A stretch of 64,000 nucleotides of DNA, from positions 248,001 through 312,000 of the forward strand of contig DATENU010000024.1 in the NCBI GenBank assembly GCA_035274845.1, written 5' to 3'. Positions 13,711 through 21,472 of the stretch are shown one piece after another (position 1 is the first letter of the stretch; each line of letters opens with the position of its first letter). A model generated the notes under the pieces. The model did not search any database, had not been told where the DNA came from, and saw nothing but the letters and a program-made list of their open reading frames with translations. The stretch is from Chthoniobacterales bacterium (GTDB lineage: Bacteria; Verrucomicrobiota; Verrucomicrobiia; Chthoniobacterales; UBA10450). The position numbers and the translations under genes are program-made.

Positions 13711-15534
13711 ATGAGCGGCGGCCTCTATCAAGCATTCATCTATCTCCTGGCGGCAATCGTTTCGGTGCCGCTGGCGAAACGTCTCGGGCTCGGCTCGGTG
13801 ATCGGGTACCTCCTGGCGGGCGCGGTCATCGGGCCCTACGCGTTGCGTTTCGTGGAGGGCGGCGGCGACGTCATGCACTTCGCCGAGTTCGGCGTCGTGA
13901 TGATGCTGTTCGTGATCGGGCTCGAACTGCGGCCGGCGTTGCTCTGGCAAATGCGAAGGCCGATTCTCGGGTTGGGCGGGCTTCAGGTGGTGGGAAGCGC
14001 CCTCGTGCTTGGGCTGGTTGCGATTTTGTGCGGGCTCGGCTGGAAAGCGTCGCTCGCCGTCGGCCTGACGCTCGCGATGTCTTCCACCGCGATCGTGTTG
14101 CAGTCGCTCGGCGAACGCGGGCTGATGAAAACGCCGGCGGGTGAAAGTTCGTTCGCCGTTCTCCTTTTCCAGGACATCGCCGTGATCCCGATCCTGGCGC
14201 TGATGCCGCTACTCTCTCTCAATCCAGGAGAAACGACAAAGCACGAGGGATTGATCAGCAGCCTTCCCGGCTGGCAACAGGCGCTGGTGGTCGTAGCCGC
14301 GGTCATTGCGATCGTTTTTGCCGGGCGCTTTTTGCTCCGGCCGTTCTTTCGTTACATAGCCGGAACGCGGTTGCGCGAAATGTTCACCGCGACCGCGCTC
14401 TTCATCGTGCTCGGGATTGCGTTGCTCATGCAAAAGCTCGGGCTGTCCCCCGCGCTCGGGACTTTCGTCGCGGGAGTAGTGCTCGCCGAAAGCGAGTATC
14501 GGGTTCAGCTCGAAGCGGACATCGAGCCGTTCAAGGGCCTGCTCCTGGGCCTCTTCTTCATCTCGGTCGGCGCGAGCATCGATTTCTCGCTCATAGGCCA
14601 ACGGCCCGGAGTGATCGCGTTAATTGTGATTGGCTTGCTCGCATTGAAGTTCGTCGTTCTGCTCGCGCTGGGCCGTGCCTTCAAATTGAGGGCGGGCGAA
14701 GGGCTGCTCTTCGCGTTCGCGCTCGCGCAGGGCGGGGAGTTCGCGTTCGTGCTCTTTTCGTTCGCGACCCAGAATTCTGTTCTGCCGGCAGACGTGGCGA
14801 ATCTTCTCGTCGCTTCCGTCGCCCTGAGCATGGCCGCCGCGCCGCTCCTCCTCACTCTTGAGGAAAAATTGGTGAGGCCGATCTTTCAAAAATGTCCGTC
14901 ACCGGAACGCGACGCAGACGAAATCGACGAGCACGATAATCCCGTCATCCTCGCCGGCTTCGGCCGCTTCGGTCACATCGTCGGCCGTCTTCTCCGCGCG
15001 AACGGCTTTCCGACCACGGTTCTCGATCACGACGCCGATCAAGTAGAGACGCTCGCGAAGTACGGAATGAAATCGTTTTACGGCGACGCGTCGCGGCTCG
15101 ACCTGCTTCATGCAGCGGGCGCGGCCCGGGCCAAACTATTCGTCCTCGCGATCGACGACGAAACCAAGGCGCTCGAAATCATCCGCACCGTGCGGCAGGA
15201 ATTCCCGCGCTTGAAGATCCTGGCGCGGGCCGCCAGCCGCCAGCACGCTTACGAAATTCTCCGGCTCGGGGTAAGTCAGGTTTATCGGGAAACGCTCGGG
15301 AGCGCGCTGGACCTGAGCATTGACGCCCTCCGCGAGTTGGGAATGGACGAGCGCCGTGCCCGACGGGCCGCCGAAATTTTCCGCAAACACGACGAAGCCT
15401 CGGTTCGCGAATTGGCCAAGGTGCCGGATGACGATGAAGACTACGTCTCGATCGCCCGCAAACACATCGAGAACCTCGAGCGCGCGCTCGCCTCGGACCT
15501 CGAGATGCGCGACGCGCCGGAAACGTCCAGCTAA
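13711..15534 (+). CDS. Kef-type monovalent cation:proton antiporter with RCK (TrkA-N) domain
   Basis: 607 residues. About residues 1-385 form 11-12 membrane helices of the CPA2 family ('GSVIGYLLAGAVIGP' near 30, 'LLFQDIAVIP' near 155, 'TFVAGVVLAESEYR' near 255). From about residue 410 a nucleotide-binding RCK domain follows ('VILAGFGRFGHIVGRLL', then 'VLDHDADQVE'), as in KefB/KefC, which expel potassium in exchange for protons when electrophiles or glutathione adducts accumulate. The open frame extends upstream through the mutS region, but that part is antisense mutS; ATG 13711 begins the first membrane helix. The stop overlaps the convergent gene by four bases. Confidence 0.92.
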   Translation: MSGGLYQAFIYLLAAIVSVPLAKRLGLGSVIGYLLAGAVIGPYALRFVEGGGDVMHFAEFGVVMMLFVIGLELRPALLWQMRRPILGLGGLQVVGSALVLGLVAILCGLGWKASLAVGLTLAMSSTAIVLQSLGERGLMKTPAGESSFAVLLFQDIAVIPILALMPLLSLNPGETTKHEGLISSLPGWQQALVVVAAVIAIVFAGRFLLRPFFRYIAGTRLREMFTATALFIVLGIALLMQKLGLSPALGTFVAGVVLAESEYRVQLEADIEPFKGLLLGLFFISVGASIDFSLIGQRPGVIALIVIGLLALKFVVLLALGRAFKLRAGEGLLFAFALAQGGEFAFVLFSFATQNSVLPADVANLLVASVALSMAAAPLLLTLEEKLVRPIFQKCPSPERDADEIDEHDNPVILAGFGRFGHIVGRLLRANGFPTTVLDHDADQVETLAKYGMKSFYGDASRLDLLHAAGAARAKLFVLAIDDETKALEIIRTVRQEFPRLKILARAASRQHAYEILRLGVSQVYRETLGSALDLSIDALRELGMDERRARRAAEIFRKHDEASVRELAKVPDDDEDYVSIARKHIENLERALASDLEMRDAPETSS

Positions 15535-16448
15535 ACGATCGCGGTGCCTTCAGTCGTTGTTCGCTCCGCGAAAAGCGCGCTCAGCCGTTGCGTCACCGGG
15601 CCGATCTGGCCGCGGCCAATTGCCCGGCCATCCAGCGTGAGCACACCGGCTAGTTCGCCCATGGTTCCAGTGCAAAACATTTCGTCAGCGGCAAAAATAT
15701 CGTCGAGCGTCAGGTCCGCTTCGCAACATAGGATCTCGTTGGCGTGGCAAATTTCCAGCACGGTCGCCCGCGTGATCCCTTCTGGACAAGCCACCACCTG
15801 CGGCGTCGCCACTTCACCCTTGCGCACGATGAAAACATGAGTCGCGTTTGTCTCCGCCACGAAGCCGCGCAGGTCGAGCATGAGCGCGTCATCGGCTCCG
15901 GCCTTGTTCGCTTCGATCTTGGCCAGGATCGAATTCAGCAAATTCGCGTGGTGAATTTGCGGATCGAGGATTTCCGGCGACGGCCGGCGCATCTTGCTTG
16001 TGATCAAAGTCAGGCCAGACTTTGCGTAAACTGGCGGCTTAAACTCCGCGAGGACGATCAACGTCGGCCCAGCCTGGTTGAGCCGGGGGTCCATTCCGGA
16101 GGTGACTTTTAACCCGCGAGTAAGCGTGAGACGGATATGGACGCCGTCCCGCATTTTGTTGCCCGCGAGCGTTTTCTTAATCTCGGCGATGATTTCTTCG
16201 TCGGCCGGAATTTCATCGAACGCCAGCGCTTCGGCGGAACGTCGCAACCGAGCGAGATGCTCGGATAGTTTGAAAATGCGCCCGTTGTAGAGTCGCAATC
16301 CCTCCCAAACCGCGTCCCCACCCTGCACTCCCGAATCGAACGGGCTGATCCCGCCTTCATCCCGATGGGCGAGCCGCCCGTTGATATTCACCAACAGGTC
16401 GCGGTTTCTCTCGTCGTATCGCTGGAGCATGATTTCATTTCTTGTCAC
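15531..16448 (-). CDS. Class IV aminotransferase-like protein lacking the PLP lysine
   Basis: 305 residues with the fold-type IV pattern shared by branched-chain and D-amino acid aminotransferases: 'SPFDSGVQGGDAVWEG' near residue 35, 'ETNATHVFIVRKGEV' near 195, and 'GTMGELAGVLTLDGRAIG' near 265. Where D-amino acid aminotransferase has its Schiff-base lysine ('DIKSLN'), this protein reads 'PQIHHANLLN', placing His166 at the lysine position. A normal transaminase is therefore doubtful. The upstream neighbour, 42 bases away on the same strand, is a sulfotransferase-like protein, and I remember plant proteins annotated 'branched-chain aminotransferase-like' that fuse these two domains. It is likely to be called ilvE by automatic annotation; I would not use that name. 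Confidence 0.8.
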   Translation of the reverse strand: MTRNEIMLQRYDERNRDLLVNINGRLAHRDEGGISPFDSGVQGGDAVWEGLRLYNGRIFKLSEHLARLRRSAEALAFDEIPADEEIIAEIKKTLAGNKMRDGVHIRLTLTRGLKVTSGMDPRLNQAGPTLIVLAEFKPPVYAKSGLTLITSKMRRPSPEILDPQIHHANLLNSILAKIEANKAGADDALMLDLRGFVAETNATHVFIVRKGEVATPQVVACPEGITRATVLEICHANEILCCEADLTLDDIFAADEMFCTGTMGELAGVLTLDGRAIGRGQIGPVTQRLSALFAERTTTEGTAIV

Positions 16449-16463
16449 GAGCGCCGCCGAAAT

Positions 16464-16486
16464 CTTGACGGCTTTAAGCCGTCAAG
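16464..16486. repeat. Perfect palindrome between the aminotransferase-like and sulfotransferase-like genes
   Basis: CTTGACGGCTT, one central T, AAGCCGTCAAG: an 11-bp perfect stem. A T6 run follows on the plus strand, but the flanking genes are on the minus strand, so it is in the wrong direction for a classical terminator of these genes. It could be a processing hairpin or another extragenic repeat. Confidence 0.6.
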
Positions 16487-16490
16487 TTTT

Positions 16491-17231
16491 TTAGTGCAGG
16501 CGATGTTCATACAGGCGGTCGTAATATTCGCGAGAGCGATCATACACATCGGACAAATGCGGTGGAACCGGAGGGTGGGTTTGGTCCGATCGTTTTCGGA
16601 AACCGGTCGATTGCGCCACCTCTCCATACCAATGCTTTGCCCAGATACCATCGGTCTCGCGCAAACCGGGCGGCCAGGAAAGCATCGCCTCCGTAAACTC
16701 GACGCCGACTGCTTCGCATAACAATCGCAGGATTCTCTCGGGATTCTCAAGAACGTCGTGCGCATCAATCACCGGCGGCACCAAACCGCTGCGGGCGGCG
16801 ACCCAGTCGAAAATCTCCGCCTGCTGGACAAACCCGATGTCTTCCAGCGTCGGATCGTTGTTCTTCTTGAGGTAGGAAATGATCACTTCCGCCGGATCGC
16901 GGATCAGAAAGCAATTCGTGACGCTTCCCAGCCAGCTGCGATCCATTTCCGGGAGAAGATGATGCGTCATCTGTTTCTGATAATAGATGCGCTTGCCACC
17001 GGGGACCGGCCCAATCAATTGTGCGGCCACTTTGCGCCAGTCGGTTTCGCCGTGTGCAATCACTTCCTCGGCGCCAGGATGGTCGAGTCCAGTCTCGCGC
17101 AAATACCAGGCGTAAAACGGCTCGTCGCAGACAACGGTGTCCGGCCGGTTCCCCCACGCCCGCATCATTGCGGTGGAAATGTTGCGCGGCCCCGACCACA
17201 TGGCGATCCGGACCGGCTGATTGTTCAGCAT
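16491..17231 (-). CDS. Sulfotransferase-like P-loop protein
   Basis: 246 residues. The 5'-phosphosulfate loop analogue is 'WSGPRNISTAMMRAW' near residue 12 and the 3'-phosphate-binding analogue is 'FLIRDPAEVIISYLKK' near 108, as in PAPS-dependent sulfotransferases. 'CDEPFYAWYL' near 35 and the C-terminal 'HPPVPPHLSDVYDRSREYY' are also characteristic of this subgroup. No signal peptide, so cytoplasmic. It stands upstream of the lysine-less class IV aminotransferase-like gene with a 42-base gap holding only a palindrome, and the two are probably co-transcribed. True sulfotransfer has not been shown for this subgroup as far as I know; the substrate is unknown. Confidence 0.8.
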   Translation of the reverse strand: MLNNQPVRIAMWSGPRNISTAMMRAWGNRPDTVVCDEPFYAWYLRETGLDHPGAEEVIAHGETDWRKVAAQLIGPVPGGKRIYYQKQMTHHLLPEMDRSWLGSVTNCFLIRDPAEVIISYLKKNNDPTLEDIGFVQQAEIFDWVAARSGLVPPVIDAHDVLENPERILRLLCEAVGVEFTEAMLSWPPGLRETDGIWAKHWYGEVAQSTGFRKRSDQTHPPVPPHLSDVYDRSREYYDRLYEHRLH

Positions 17232-17417: not shown

Positions 17418-18653
17418 TCACGGCACACAAAGATCGGGATGAGCGAAAATACTCGTGGGGCCGGCTTTGCGAACTCTCCACGAGACTTGGGTTCCTTTTG
17501 CGCCTTCAAGTTCGACGCTCTTAGCGGCAGGCACGTTGACTTCAATGGTTTGGCCTTTTGCGTATTCGAGGAGATTGGGGAATCCCGGTACTCCGTTGAC
17601 GGTGAAAACCGCCAGTGTAGCAATGACATAGCCACTCAATTCGGGATGCGAGCGAAAGGCTACGAGACGCCCCGTGATATCGGCCCAGTTTTCGATCACC
17701 TTCACATTGAACATGGATGTTTCCTGCTTTCCAGCCAGGTAATCCACCACCGCGCGAGCGATTGGCTGGCCGGTTTCTTGTTCGTAGTAGCTGTAAGCGG
17801 GAGACGGATTCACCTCGAAGCAATAGTATTCGTCGTCCGGGGTCCGCATAAGGTCAATGCCGCAGAATGGCAAACACAACGCCTGGGAAAGGCGGACGCA
17901 GCGCACCGCGATCTCAGTGGGCAATTCGATTTCGCGCATCTCCACTTGTTCGCCATCCCGGTGGGCGTAGCGGTAGTCCACCGCGGTCGTCGCAATCTCG
18001 GTGGGAAAGAGCCTATTGCCGACCACGTGGACGCGTATGTTCGTGCCCGTGATTCGCGCTTGAAATTGTGTCGGTAGCGCGCGCAATTTGGATAACTTTT
18101 CTGGATGGGAGGAATCAAATTCGCGGACGATCGATCGAATGGAACTTGTCGATTTATAAACCACGGGCCCATGCCGGCGGGCAAAGTCGACGGCCTCATC
18201 CGGCTCGTTCGTCACCAATGTCGGCGGGACGAGAAATCCAGCCCGTTGAATCCACTGAGCCTGATAGGGCTTGGATCCGTTCGATGCCATCGCTTCCGCC
18301 TTGTTCAGGACCCGGCACTCAGCCATCTCGATCCAATCGGCTAACACCGAATGGAGAAAAGCGGAGTGTTTCACTGCCTGCGGATCGGCCTGCCTCCGCC
18401 CGCGGGCGCGACTTTCGGGCAGGCCGCCGTAGTCGATCATACGGCTATAGACCCCGGTGAAATCCTTCAACGGCCACGCCGTCTCCTGCGTCCAAAGCGT
18501 CCCGCTCCACCGACCGCCTTGCTGTTCCAAGAGCAGATCGGAAAAGGCAGCCTCGCGTTGGTTAAAGACGACATGGCGAACTTCCGCCTCCGCCGCCGCG
18601 GCGAGCGCCATCGCCATCGGCGGCTCCGATGGGATGCCACAGAAAAGAATCAT
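17418..18653 (-). CDS. RimK/MvdD-type ATP-grasp ligase with extra C-terminal domain
   Basis: 411 residues. After a pre-ATP-grasp domain (1 to about 115), the nucleotide-binding part shows 'VVYKSTSSIRS' near residue 165 (the Lys that binds ATP), 'NIRVHVVGNRLFP' near 207, 'CGIDLMRTPDDEYY' near 265 and the metal-binding 'FEVNPSPAYSYYE' near 280, so all catalytic residues seem present. Such enzymes join a carboxylate to an amine or hydroxyl through an acyl phosphate and include the graspetide (microviridin) ligases. From about residue 312 a roughly 100-residue beta-rich domain of unknown type follows ('FNVKVIENWADITGRL...'). The start codon overlaps the stop of the degenerate ATP-grasp gene (ATGA). 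Third gene of a three-gene operon. Confidence 0.85.
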   Translation of the reverse strand: MILFCGIPSEPPMAMALAAAAEAEVRHVVFNQREAAFSDLLLEQQGGRWSGTLWTQETAWPLKDFTGVYSRMIDYGGLPESRARGRRQADPQAVKHSAFLHSVLADWIEMAECRVLNKAEAMASNGSKPYQAQWIQRAGFLVPPTLVTNEPDEAVDFARRHGPVVYKSTSSIRSIVREFDSSHPEKLSKLRALPTQFQARITGTNIRVHVVGNRLFPTEIATTAVDYRYAHRDGEQVEMREIELPTEIAVRCVRLSQALCLPFCGIDLMRTPDDEYYCFEVNPSPAYSYYEQETGQPIARAVVDYLAGKQETSMFNVKVIENWADITGRLVAFRSHPELSGYVIATLAVFTVNGVPGFPNLLEYAKGQTIEVNVPAAKSVELEGAKGTQVSWRVRKAGPTSIFAHPDLCVP

Positions 18654-19474
18654 GCGACTTCGGCCTGCACTGGGATTTCGTTCTCTGCGGCGCGCTCCAG
18701 AAGGTGGACGACGGCCGCGAGCTCAAGGGCATCCAGCATAGGCAAAATCTCAGCGTGGCGAAAAAGCCAGCGTGCGCCGTGAGGTTGGCCCGAGGTAAAG
18801 TGAAGACGGAGAAGCAGCGCGCGAGCCAGCCGCGCGAAGGTCCGACAGGCGGGGAGCAGCCCTGGCGGCAAGTTTCCACAGACTTCCTCTCCGGCGAGCA
18901 GCACCGAATGGGCGTTGGGCCCAGGTGGCTCGGCGACAACGGCAAACCCACGCGTTGCGAAGGAGCGCCCAACCGGCCCACTGGAACCGTCCGCTAAAGG
19001 CAGGCCATCTGCCGGAAAGCGACGGAGGTTGCTCGTCAGGCGCAACCGCGGGACCGGCAGCCCGGCCTCGGTAGCTAGTCTGAGCCAGCCCGTTGGAGTA
19101 CGATTCGGGGCGAAACCACGGGTTGTGACCGGATTGATGACAGGACAGGGAAATCCTTCTAACCAACTCTGGAGCAGCGCCGACATCTCCGCCCCTGCAT
19201 AATCCCGGTCAGCGTTTCCAAATTGCGTGAGGTTGAGGAAAGATAACCGATGCAAGACGACACCTACCTCTGTGTTGTCGATCAGTGTGCCGTCATGCAA
19301 CTGTACTCGGGAGCGGACGCCGTCCGTATCCAGACGGTGCACCCACCGCGGAGCGAGGACCAGTTCCTCCGCGGCGACGAGCCGGCATGCGCCACTTCCG
19401 TGACGGCGGGAGAGGACCGCTGCCACCGCCGCCGCCGACATGTCCGTGCGATGGGCCAGGATGAGAAACTTCAT
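18650..19474 (-). CDS. Degenerate ATP-grasp-like partner protein
   Basis: 274 residues. The N-terminal half resembles the pre-ATP-grasp domain of MvdD-like ligases: 'MKFLILAHRTDMSAAAV', 'NTEVGVVLHRLS' near 70, 'FPCPVINPVTTRGFAPN' near 110, 'AGLPVPRLRLTSN' near 138. The C-terminal part still aligns by pattern ('SVLLAGEEVCGNLPP' near 193, 'CRTFARLARALLLRLHF'), but where the active enzyme has Phe-Glu-Val-Asn-Pro this protein reads 'LFRHAEILP', so the metal-binding Glu and Asn are missing, and much of the ATP-binding sheet is shortened. I read it as a catalytically dead subunit that may bind substrate or pair with the intact ligase. It lies 21 bases after the protease gene and overlaps the ligase start. 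Confidence 0.65.
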   Translation of the reverse strand: MKFLILAHRTDMSAAAVAAVLSRRHGSGACRLVAAEELVLAPRWVHRLDTDGVRSRVQLHDGTLIDNTEVGVVLHRLSFLNLTQFGNADRDYAGAEMSALLQSWLEGFPCPVINPVTTRGFAPNRTPTGWLRLATEAGLPVPRLRLTSNLRRFPADGLPLADGSSGPVGRSFATRGFAVVAEPPGPNAHSVLLAGEEVCGNLPPGLLPACRTFARLARALLLRLHFTSGQPHGARWLFRHAEILPMLDALELAAVVHLLERAAENEIPVQAEVA

Positions 19475-19495
19475 CTTGAGCGCCTCGCCAGCAAC

Positions 19496-21472
19496 TTAGC
19501 GCTCCAAGACCTTTGTATCGTAAGAACGTTTGGCCTGCGCGGATCCCGCTTCCATCTCTTGCTGGGCCCGCGCAAGATCCTGCTCGTTGAGCAGAGCGCC
19601 TTGGGTAAGGTCTGGCCGCAACTCGCGCCCAATGAATGGCTGAGCCGTCGCGGCTTGTCCCCCTGTTCCCAGGGCAGCCTCGATCGCTTGGATACGCGTG
19701 AGCAGATTCGTCAGAACGGCCTCGTTGCCTCCGCTCAGGCTGCCAAGTTCGCCCAACTTTCCACCTTCCCCTTGCTTATCGAATCCTTTATCGAACGCCG
19801 CCGATTTGTCGGTTATTGGCTTTTCAAACTCCTTCACCGGCTTTTCGACGATGTCTTTCTCCTTGATTTCCTTGTGGTCCTTCTTCTCGAACTCTTTCCC
19901 CTCCTTATCCTTTATGATATCTTTGTGGGTATCTTTCTGATCCTTGATGATCTCCTTAATGTCTTTTTTCTCGAGCTCTTTCCCTTCCTTATCCTTGATG
20001 ATATCTTTGTGGGTGTCTTTCTGATCCTTGGTGATCTCCTTGATGACCTTGCACTTGACCCGGAGAGTTGCGGTGATGATAGGACCCGGCGCACCAATCG
20101 CACTGACGGCTACACAGGTATCCTGCCCGGAATACGATTTTGAGTTAGGGGTGGATGTGTTGCTGAAGTTGGTATTGTTCGCCGTCCCCGGGTAAGGATC
20201 GCCGGCGTCACCGCGGTTGACGTTGTGTTCAAGATCTTTTTTCGCGTCGGCCTGGATGAGCGCCACCTTGTAATGATTTTCATCGGTATTGCCGCCCTGG
20301 GAATCGTCGATGTGCCATATGAGGAGACCCCCGCCAGGCAGTGAGGCATCGAATCCGGTCCTCTCGCGATTCTCCACGAGGAAGTATTCGCTGCCGGAAG
20401 CTCCGTCCTTCCAGAGCCGGAAGACTTGATGGGAGGTCTTCACATCCTCGATGTTTTTTGCACCATTAGCCATCACGTTCATGACCGATGCCCAGCCTTG
20501 GTTGGCTTTGCACCACGCCGAGGGATGCACGGGCGTGTCTCCACCCCCGCCCCAGCTTCCGCCCGCCATAAGGCAGAAGTTGCCGATGCCTTCGGAAGTG
20601 TTGTCGGTATCGTAGAGATCAGGAAAGCCGAAGAGAAGGTGCCCTAGCTCATGGCAGCACACCCCTATCTTGCAATCTTCGGGCACTGTAAGATAAGCGA
20701 ATATCTTCGTTCCATCGGCTGTCCTCGCTCCCCCGTCTAACACCCACTTATGGGACCATATGTCCCCCGGATTACCGGTGACCTCTCCGCCGGGGCCGGC
20801 GTGAACGACAATGAAGGCATCGACGAACCCATTCCCGTCGTTGTCGAAGGGCGCAAAATTTACCGTTGGATCAGCGGCGGCGACGGCGTCACGCGCCATC
20901 GTACGCGCATTGGGCAGCACACCGCCCAGCCCCGCGGCGCCGTGCGCGTAAGCCGCGATGGTTTGTGGCATCGTAAAAGGCCCGACGACCTGCCCTTGGA
21001 TATCGATTATGCCATGGGTCACATCCTTGTAGTACTCCCGAACGCTCTTGGTCGGCATGACTCCCTGAGAGAAAAAGAGATCGTTGAAGTGCGCTGCGGA
21101 GTGGCTCATTTGCTTGTCTGGAAAGTTGACCAAAACTACAATCACGCGCACGACGCCGGCGAGGGGGGCGCGCTCTGCCGCTCCGCTCCGGATCGCCCGC
21201 AGCGGCGTGCCGAGCGGATACTCGTCGGGAGGAACGATCATACCATCATTCAACCCCGGTGCCTGGGGCTCTGCCGCGCGCACCAATCCGCGAATGACGC
21301 TTCGTTCAGTCGCTCGGAGCGTTTTCAGCTCTGCCTTGATCTTGTCTTGAAGGTCCGGATGGGCCGCTACCATGCAGCGTCGCCCGTCATCCGTCTGGCG
21401 TGCCGCTGCGTAAGTCCTCGCGACCTGCGCCGCGAGGATCTTTGCTGCTATATGGATGTCCTCGTTTTTCAT
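19496..21472 (-). CDS. M6-type metalloprotease with tandem charged repeats and conserved-looking C-terminal tail
   Basis: 658 residues. The catalytic domain (about 90-470) carries the zincin motif 'CCHELGHLLFGFPDLYD' with His274, Glu275 and His278, plus 'VRVIVVLVNFPDKQM' and 'SVREYYKDVTHG', as in immune-inhibitor-A-like M6 peptidases. No signal peptide is visible, unusual for this mostly secreted family. From about residue 475 the chain becomes Lys/Asp/Glu/Thr-rich, with two 28-residue direct repeats at 479-506 and 507-534, then a linker and a tail with 'QPFIGRELRPDLTQGAL' near 617. As the first gene of an operon with an intact and a degenerate ATP-grasp protein, its tail is a plausible substrate or recognition element for them. 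Confidence 0.85.
   Translation of the reverse strand: MKNEDIHIAAKILAAQVARTYAAARQTDDGRRCMVAAHPDLQDKIKAELKTLRATERSVIRGLVRAAEPQAPGLNDGMIVPPDEYPLGTPLRAIRSGAAERAPLAGVVRVIVVLVNFPDKQMSHSAAHFNDLFFSQGVMPTKSVREYYKDVTHGIIDIQGQVVGPFTMPQTIAAYAHGAAGLGGVLPNARTMARDAVAAADPTVNFAPFDNDGNGFVDAFIVVHAGPGGEVTGNPGDIWSHKWVLDGGARTADGTKIFAYLTVPEDCKIGVCCHELGHLLFGFPDLYDTDNTSEGIGNFCLMAGGSWGGGGDTPVHPSAWCKANQGWASVMNVMANGAKNIEDVKTSHQVFRLWKDGASGSEYFLVENRERTGFDASLPGGGLLIWHIDDSQGGNTDENHYKVALIQADAKKDLEHNVNRGDAGDPYPGTANNTNFSNTSTPNSKSYSGQDTCVAVSAIGAPGPIITATLRVKCKVIKEITKDQKDTHKDIIKDKEGKELEKKDIKEIIKDQKDTHKDIIKDKEGKEFEKKDHKEIKEKDIVEKPVKEFEKPITDKSAAFDKGFDKQGEGGKLGELGSLSGGNEAVLTNLLTRIQAIEAALGTGGQAATAQPFIGRELRPDLTQGALLNEQDLARAQQEMEAGSAQAKRSYDTKVLER
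19871..20038 (-). repeat. Two 84-bp in-frame tandem repeats in the protease gene
   Basis: Units 19955-20038 and 19871-19954 each encode 28 residues beginning 'EI(T/I)KDQKDTHKDIIKDK' and ending 'KKD(I/H)K'. The two protein copies differ at three positions (T/I, L/F, I/H) and the DNA copies mostly by silent changes, so the repeat seems under selection at the protein level. Confidence 0.9.

Follow-up and report, generated by a model that had tools for sequence, protein, structure and literature searches.

A stretch of 64,000 nucleotides from a Chthoniobacterales genome (the window) carries on its minus strand a gene for a Sulfotransfer_5 family sulfotransferase (ST), followed by a gene for a class IV aminotransferase-like protein (AT). 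Judged by alignment, the lysine with which such enzymes bind pyridoxal 5'-phosphate (PLP) as a Schiff base has been lost from AT and its place taken by histidine. The two genes were found together in several bacterial phyla, which points to an uncharacterized two-step reaction of the ST–AT pair. Tentatively, we propose a conserved two-gene module in which sulfate activation is followed by an elimination assisted by PLP or pyridoxamine 5'-phosphate (PMP), with His160 of AT as acid/base. Both genes lie where an earlier note, made from the letters of this DNA alone, had placed them. The ATG at 16430 is a more likely start of the AT gene than the GTG at 16448, because an MLQ start is common to the aligned relatives, and the residue called His166 in the earlier note is therefore His160. 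The main features are as follows (BCAT, branched-chain aminotransferase; PAPS, 3'-phosphoadenosine 5'-phosphosulfate).

15531..16430, minus strand: lysine-less class IV aminotransferase-like gene (AT, His-type), 299 aa plus stop, probable start ATG at 16430
16491..17231, minus strand: Sulfotransfer_5 family sulfotransferase gene (ST), 246 aa plus stop
16431..16490, minus strand: gap of 60 nt between the ST and AT genes
15951..15953, minus strand: codon of His160, which occupies the place of the Schiff-base lysine, by alignment with Lys159 of E. coli BCAT and Asn174 of 7z79
16107..16109, minus strand: codon of Lys108, in a loop matching the O-pocket loop that the neighbouring subunit contributes; occurs together with the loss of Lys160
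15852..15854, minus strand: codon of Glu193, the predicted pyridine-nitrogen contact, kept in the His-type
17172..17198, minus strand: P-loop-like segment WSGPRNIST, putative 5'-phosphosulfate site; W12, P15, R16 and S19 invariant in 64 aligned rows
16875..16901, minus strand: R111...S119, candidate 3'-phosphate motif of PAPS enzymes; R111 invariant and S119 in at least 90% of the 64 rows

The Schiff-base lysine position in AT and its relatives

AT matched the Pfam family PF01063 (Aminotran_4) at 4.6e-45 with 154.6 bits (cut-off 28.5). Among the NCBIfam models 23 were matched, mostly those for BCATs, D-amino-acid aminotransferases (D-AATs) and aminodeoxychorismate (ADC) lyases, and every score was below the curated cut-off. 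Hence, names of the ilvE type are unsafe for AT, as the earlier note had warned. The AlphaFold model of AT (mean predicted local distance difference test score, pLDDT, 89.5) found as its top Foldseek match 7z79 (E 1.4e-34, template modelling (TM) score 0.89, 41% identity), which is an 'aminotransferase-like protein' of Variovorax paradoxus; the N174K mutant of that protein, 9j32, was also a structural match. In the alignments His160 stands in the column of Lys159 in E. coli BCAT (1a3g), Lys150 in Archaeoglobus BCAT (5mqz) and Asn174 in 7z79. In sequence terms the Schiff-base lysine is thus lost, as the earlier note had claimed, and the usual internal aldimine would therefore be impossible in AT. 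Two further class IV proteins of the source genome, found with AT as query (L002 and L003), both have the lysine. His160 was invariant in 71 of 71 aligned relatives (the window protein plus 70 of the 77 non-redundant rows that remain when L004, which is the window sequence itself, is set aside), and hence its presence is not due to chance.

The other PLP-site residues checked were retained, also in agreement with the earlier note. AT shares with the archaeal (5mqz, 5cm0) and E. coli (1a3g) BCATs the fold, the PLP phosphate cup and a clear sequence similarity; unlike AT, these enzymes keep the Schiff-base lysine and have no lysine at position 108. The alignment with E. coli BCAT paired E193 with E193, R61 with R59, T220 with T221 and T256 with T257. 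Thus, of the PLP contacts of E. coli BCAT listed in the consulted part of PMC8320979, the counterparts R61, I219-T220, T256 and E193 are kept. Of the traits of a class IV transaminase (BCAT or D-AAT), AT thus has the fold, the phosphate cup and the glutamate facing N1, but lacks the lysine.

A set of 153 distinct family proteins showed His at residue 160 in 132, Asn in 16 and Lys in 4, the latter being ordinary controls; one protein was cut off. In the His-type R61, T220, E193, K108 and K131 were each found in 132 of 132 proteins, and T256 in 131, the remaining row having a gap there. The Asn-type had K108 in 16/16 and K131 in 14/16 proteins, and at the position of Glu193 carried Thr (12) or Ser (4). 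Position 108 was Gly in all four Lys-type proteins; as there were only four such rows and recruitment used family profiles that carry K108, the invariance of K108 is partly a product of selection. The phosphate cup residues were kept in all types. Retention of this cup together with Glu193 argues that the His-type still binds vitamin B6. A decayed pseudogene was rejected, because conservation is higher in AT than in ST: in the AT alignment the 70 rows besides the window protein were 54–79% identical to it, those of the ST alignment (64 rows, the window protein and 63 of the 81 non-redundant rows other than its own copy) 38–73%. Active-site residues were among the most conserved AT columns.

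His-type and Asn-type were joined in a tree of 44 rows with a support of 100/100 against seven Lys-type rows, the alignment including the trait column itself. Each formed a single group (100/99), and the window protein fell into the sister clade of the Asn-type. With His160 and Glu193 it lies outside the definition of that type (Asn at the lysine column, no Glu193). 7z79, itself of the Asn-type and grouped with AT against the Lys-type rows, resembles AT in its fold, in the absence of lysine from the same column and in K120 and K143, the counterparts of K108 and K131, but has Asn instead of His and Ser instead of Glu193. An actinobacterial Asn-type protein encoded next to an ST was closer to 7z79 (2.8e-111) than to lysine-bearing BCATs (4e-61). 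Unlike the window pair, the close plasmid relatives of 7z79 adjoin amino-acid ABC transporters or other genes: of six proteobacterial plasmids with an Asn-type gene, four had such transporters adjoining (L240, L241, L244 and L245, in some cases together with genes for a proC-like reductase and a chloride channel) and the rest had other genes. These neighbours offer a lead to the substrate of 7z79. No paper on 7z79, on lysine-less class IV proteins or on the ST–AT pair was found in the open-access literature, where the two known families joined here thus form a module without a function in print.

The sulfotransferase partner and its association with AT

The gene upstream of AT, taken in the earlier note for a relative of P-loop sulfotransferases, was confirmed as such by its match to PF19798 (Sulfotransfer_5; 4.3e-59, 200.1 bits, gathering score 23.2). 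The residues P15, R16, S19, E37, H91 and R111 were invariant in the 64 aligned rows, E37 and H91 being candidates for the catalytic base. The names given above to the 5'-phosphosulfate P-loop and the 3'-phosphate Arg...Ser motif follow what we take to be general for sulfotransferases. The genome contains an adenosine 5'-phosphosulfate (APS) kinase gene, so that PAPS can be made in the source organism. When the ST sequence profile was compared with all Protein Data Bank entries, only the sulfotransferase domains of CurM (4gbm, 1e-8) and of an olefin synthase (4gox, 8e-7) were found at E ≤0.01. The predicted structure (pLDDT 96.2) led by VIA-align to the same two domains, 4gox with Z 14.7 (3.6 Å over 216 residues) and 4gbm with Z 14.6 (3.9 Å over 220 residues), which are hence the closest solved sulfotransferases by profile and by fold. 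As described in the consulted parts of PMC3903477 and PMC10946740, they sulfonate a β-hydroxyl as an activation, followed by desulfation to the alkene. These are polyketide synthase domains acting on carrier-bound β-hydroxyacyl chains, in contrast to the free 246-residue protein of the window.

Relatives of AT numbered at least 538, of which the best 80 were examined as named genome loci. All 80 loci had the His motif (79 distinct proteins, all with His). They span Verrucomicrobia, Planctomycetes, Gemmatimonadetes, Acidobacteria, Actinobacteria, Proteobacteria and Chloroflexi, though labels of metagenome bins may be wrong. In 60 of these loci ST lay within the locus, and in 9 of the remaining 20 it was found elsewhere in the genome. 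Genome samples of four phyla gave a consistent picture. Among 199 Planctomycetota genomes 27 had AT, 29 had ST and 27 had both; of the two exceptions with ST only, one (G361) carries an Asn-type AT just under the cut and in the other (G426) AT is cut by the contig end. Thirteen of 217 Actinomycetota genomes had AT and the same 13 a strong ST, the cut for the latter (1e-70) having been chosen after the scores were seen; 11 more genomes had weaker ST paralogues only (1e-40 to 1e-50) and no AT. AT was found in 23 and ST in 5 of 150 Gemmatimonadota genomes, and in 7 and 5, respectively, of 288 Verrucomicrobiota genomes, and in both phyla all five ST genomes had AT. For Verrucomicrobiota, ST was searched with the single window protein and AT with a profile; the seven AT family members were found at ≤1e-134 and other class IV proteins matched at 1e-64 to 1e-76, so that the two kinds stood well apart. 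Taken over the four samples, a close ST was accompanied by a lysine-less protein in 52 of 52 genomes. Fisher's exact test, which ignores shared ancestry, gave p values of 2e-31 for Planctomycetota, 4e-21 for Actinomycetota (strong ST), 6e-5 for Gemmatimonadota and 1e-9 for Verrucomicrobiota. A lack of co-occurrence elsewhere, which the earlier note had named as a refutation of its reading, was thus not observed, and the adjacency is conserved across phyla.

The order of the two genes differed between the types. Among distinct His-type proteins the order was ST then AT, closely spaced in 84 cases and with a gap of more than 400 nt in 5, and 43 had no ST in the examined locus; ten Asn-type proteins showed the order AT then ST and six were without ST. 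Had one linkage simply been inherited, two gene orders with a common partner would hardly be expected. The median distance between profile matches was 33 nt for ST before AT and 29 nt for AT before ST, taken over loci with some pairs counted twice. That the neighbourship reflects nothing but hitchhiking or shared ancestry is therefore strongly disfavoured and very improbable: AT can stand alone, and ST is unlinked in the nine genomes mentioned above, but the 52 genomes over four phyla, the opposite orders and the co-occurrence even of unlinked pairs speak against it.

According to the earlier note, land plants would encode 'branched-chain aminotransferase-like' proteins in which a class IV domain with the same His-His motif is joined in one chain to a sulfotransferase-like part. 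A fusion of this kind was not detected among the bacterial sequences, no frame out of 223 AT and 182 ST frames matching both profiles; long open frames considered as candidate bacterial fusions proved to be artefacts of overlapping frames. 'Branched-chain-amino-acid aminotransferase-like protein' is a gene name in use for plants, and a sea-cucumber protein of the same name is reported with an acetylated K746, so that it must have at least 746 residues.

Several side observations concern ST relatives and neighbouring genes. The weaker Sulfotransfer_5 proteins of Actinomycetota (L223-L239, 1e-38 to 1e-51) form a second clade. It occurs in the 11 genomes that lack the lysine-less protein, and some genomes having AT carry it as an additional copy. 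A Dolichospermum plasmid (L009) carries a Sulfotransfer_5 relative (41% identity) near cysC, a gene for adenylyl-sulfate kinase; the annotation shows no class IV gene within 12.8 kb. Three actinobacterial loci (L063, L071 and L080) have a zinc alcohol dehydrogenase gene before ST, an arrangement that is not general. Loci resembling that of Chthoniobacterales have local neighbours in common, most simply by common ancestry. In the window the pair is immediately preceded, on its own strand, by an ATP-grasp gene (17418-18653, minus strand). Its product is most like maturases of ribosomal peptides (TIGR04187 1.4e-38, MvdD 6e-25, all below cut-off), and its gene overlaps by 4 bases with that of a 274-aa protein without a family match. 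Further upstream, an M6 metalloprotease gene (19496-21472, minus strand) encodes a tail rich in lysine, aspartate and glutamate with a 28-residue repeat (84-bp unit, 2.1 copies at 19877-20050). The stretch 17418-21472 (minus strand) could be a graspetide-like peptide-modification locus.

A model for the pair and its alternatives

In the module that we propose, ST would be PAPS-dependent and sulfate a hydroxyl group of some small metabolite, with an amino- or oxo-acid as the probable substrate. AT would hold PLP or PMP non-covalently, the Schiff base being formed directly with the substrate. His160 would act as acid/base, pulling a proton and expelling the activated sulfate group with no amino-group swap, and the substrate would be held at its anionic group by Lys108 of the adjacent subunit. 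Such an enzyme would work like the nucleotide-sugar 3-dehydratases ColD, E1 and SpnQ, but on another fold, and sulfation would supply its substrate, as it does in the pathways of curacin and olefin synthase. As far as the consulted part of PMC8987622 goes, those dehydratases carry His in the place of the PLP lysine, where it serves as acid/base in a PMP-dependent expulsion of a hydroxyl. The likeness is a parallel and not a homology: as described there, they are relatives of aspartate aminotransferase, whereas AT is of fold type IV. They act on nucleotide sugars and are not known to have a sulfotransferase partner. Since His suits a C–O elimination and the solved relatives of ST make sulfate leaving groups, sulfation followed by elimination is the most economical model.

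A number of observations weigh against this model. The co-occurrence p values do not allow for shared ancestry. AT was found without ST in 18 of the 23 Gemmatimonadota and in two of the seven Verrucomicrobiota genomes having it, and on the six proteobacterial plasmids examined no ST lay beside the Asn-type gene; 'one two-domain function', as the earlier note had put it, was consequently too strong. There was no pathway neighbour common to all loci and no third gene common across phyla. The fold of ST matched a tyrosylprotein sulfotransferase about as well (Z 14.3, 4.2 Å over 209 residues), so that the predicted fold does not show sulfate to be a leaving group. In addition, His160 and Glu193 are both missing from the ST-linked Asn-type. 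Hence, both residues are unnecessary for the partnership with ST, and a chemistry common to the two types is not to be taken for granted. Sequence, adjacency and co-occurrence are observed and the folds predicted; cofactor, substrate, reaction and the role of Lys108 are inferred.

The genes standing before AT where ST is missing were also recorded. Of the 18 Gemmatimonadota genomes lacking ST, 7 have a threonine synthase gene directly before AT, preceded by homoserine kinase wherever the examined stretch reaches, and in six loci (L187, L189, L191, L193, L194 and L195) a row thrB-thrC-AT ends with AT. The arrangement of threonine synthase then AT also occurs in three of the named genome loci (L045, L059 and L065), and in one planctomycete (L132) threonine synthase, ST and AT are consecutive. 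Four other genomes of the 18 have a gene of 280 residues before AT, grouped by position and length; the only one scanned (L186) is a hexapeptide O-acyltransferase relative. In two Verrucomicrobiota loci of the same genus code (L249 and L250) a gene of the M24 creatinase/prolidase family ends just before AT, replacing ST. A wider form of the proposal, which we regard as doubtful, would be a general chemistry, hidden under names such as ilvE or D-AAT, in which a hydroxyl is activated and then eliminated by a lysine-less fold-type IV B6 enzyme. The activator would usually be a Sulfotransfer_5 protein; in the Gemmatimonadota without ST, the neighbouring thrB-thrC or O-acyltransferase-like genes would be other hydroxyl-esterifying enzymes.

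Among the alternatives, AT might be a pseudoenzyme, that is a non-catalytic subunit which binds substrate or cofactor and scaffolds or regulates ST. Lysine is lost in both sister types, Glu193 in addition in the Asn-type, and the adjacency to ST nevertheless persists in either order. We consider this rather doubtful, since AT occurs without ST in most of the Gemmatimonadota with AT and on proteobacterial plasmids, and since its active-site residues are so well conserved. A moved lysine, with Lys108 (or Lys131) as aldimine lysine or catalytic base of an ordinary transaminase, is unlikely. Lys108 was found in 148 of 148 lysine-less proteins against Gly in the four Lys-type proteins, a count biased by recruitment with K108-bearing queries, but residue 108 is part of the O-pocket loop, which comes from the other subunit. 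This is the place of the carboxylate-binding Arg98* and His100* that D-AAT receives from its other subunit (O-pocket loop, PMC8320979; residues, PMC8401098 and PMC8320979; consulted in part). Binding of substrate is therefore the simpler role, and Lys108 is read here as a substrate anchor. Crystallization of the N174K Asn-type protein, known from the title of 9j32, suggests that others regard Asn174 as the vacant lysine site. Finally, the phosphate cup might bind another ligand, such as 3'-phosphoadenosine 5'-phosphate (PAP), PAPS or a phosphorylated substrate, vitamin B6 being no longer used. The cup is kept in every type while the lysine has gone, as has Glu193 in the Asn-type, yet Glu193, needed for the pyridine nitrogen, is present in all 132 His-type proteins, making this improbable.

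Proteins of this family are annotated as branched-chain or D-amino-acid aminotransferases, yet lack the residue that defines that chemistry. The His-type has a B6 site kept in all other respects, the sister type a solved structure, and the partner is found in both gene orders, so that purification of two proteins would make the function accessible to tests. Should the elimination model be true, it would represent a new way of breaking C–O bonds and a new use of sulfation; if it is wrong, a frequent misannotation would still be removed and a partner gene gained for the orphan structure 7z79. Should the general activation and elimination chemistry hold, it would be the fold-type IV parallel of the ColD reaction, with a hydroxy-amino acid, for instance a homoserine or threonine derivative, as the substrate.

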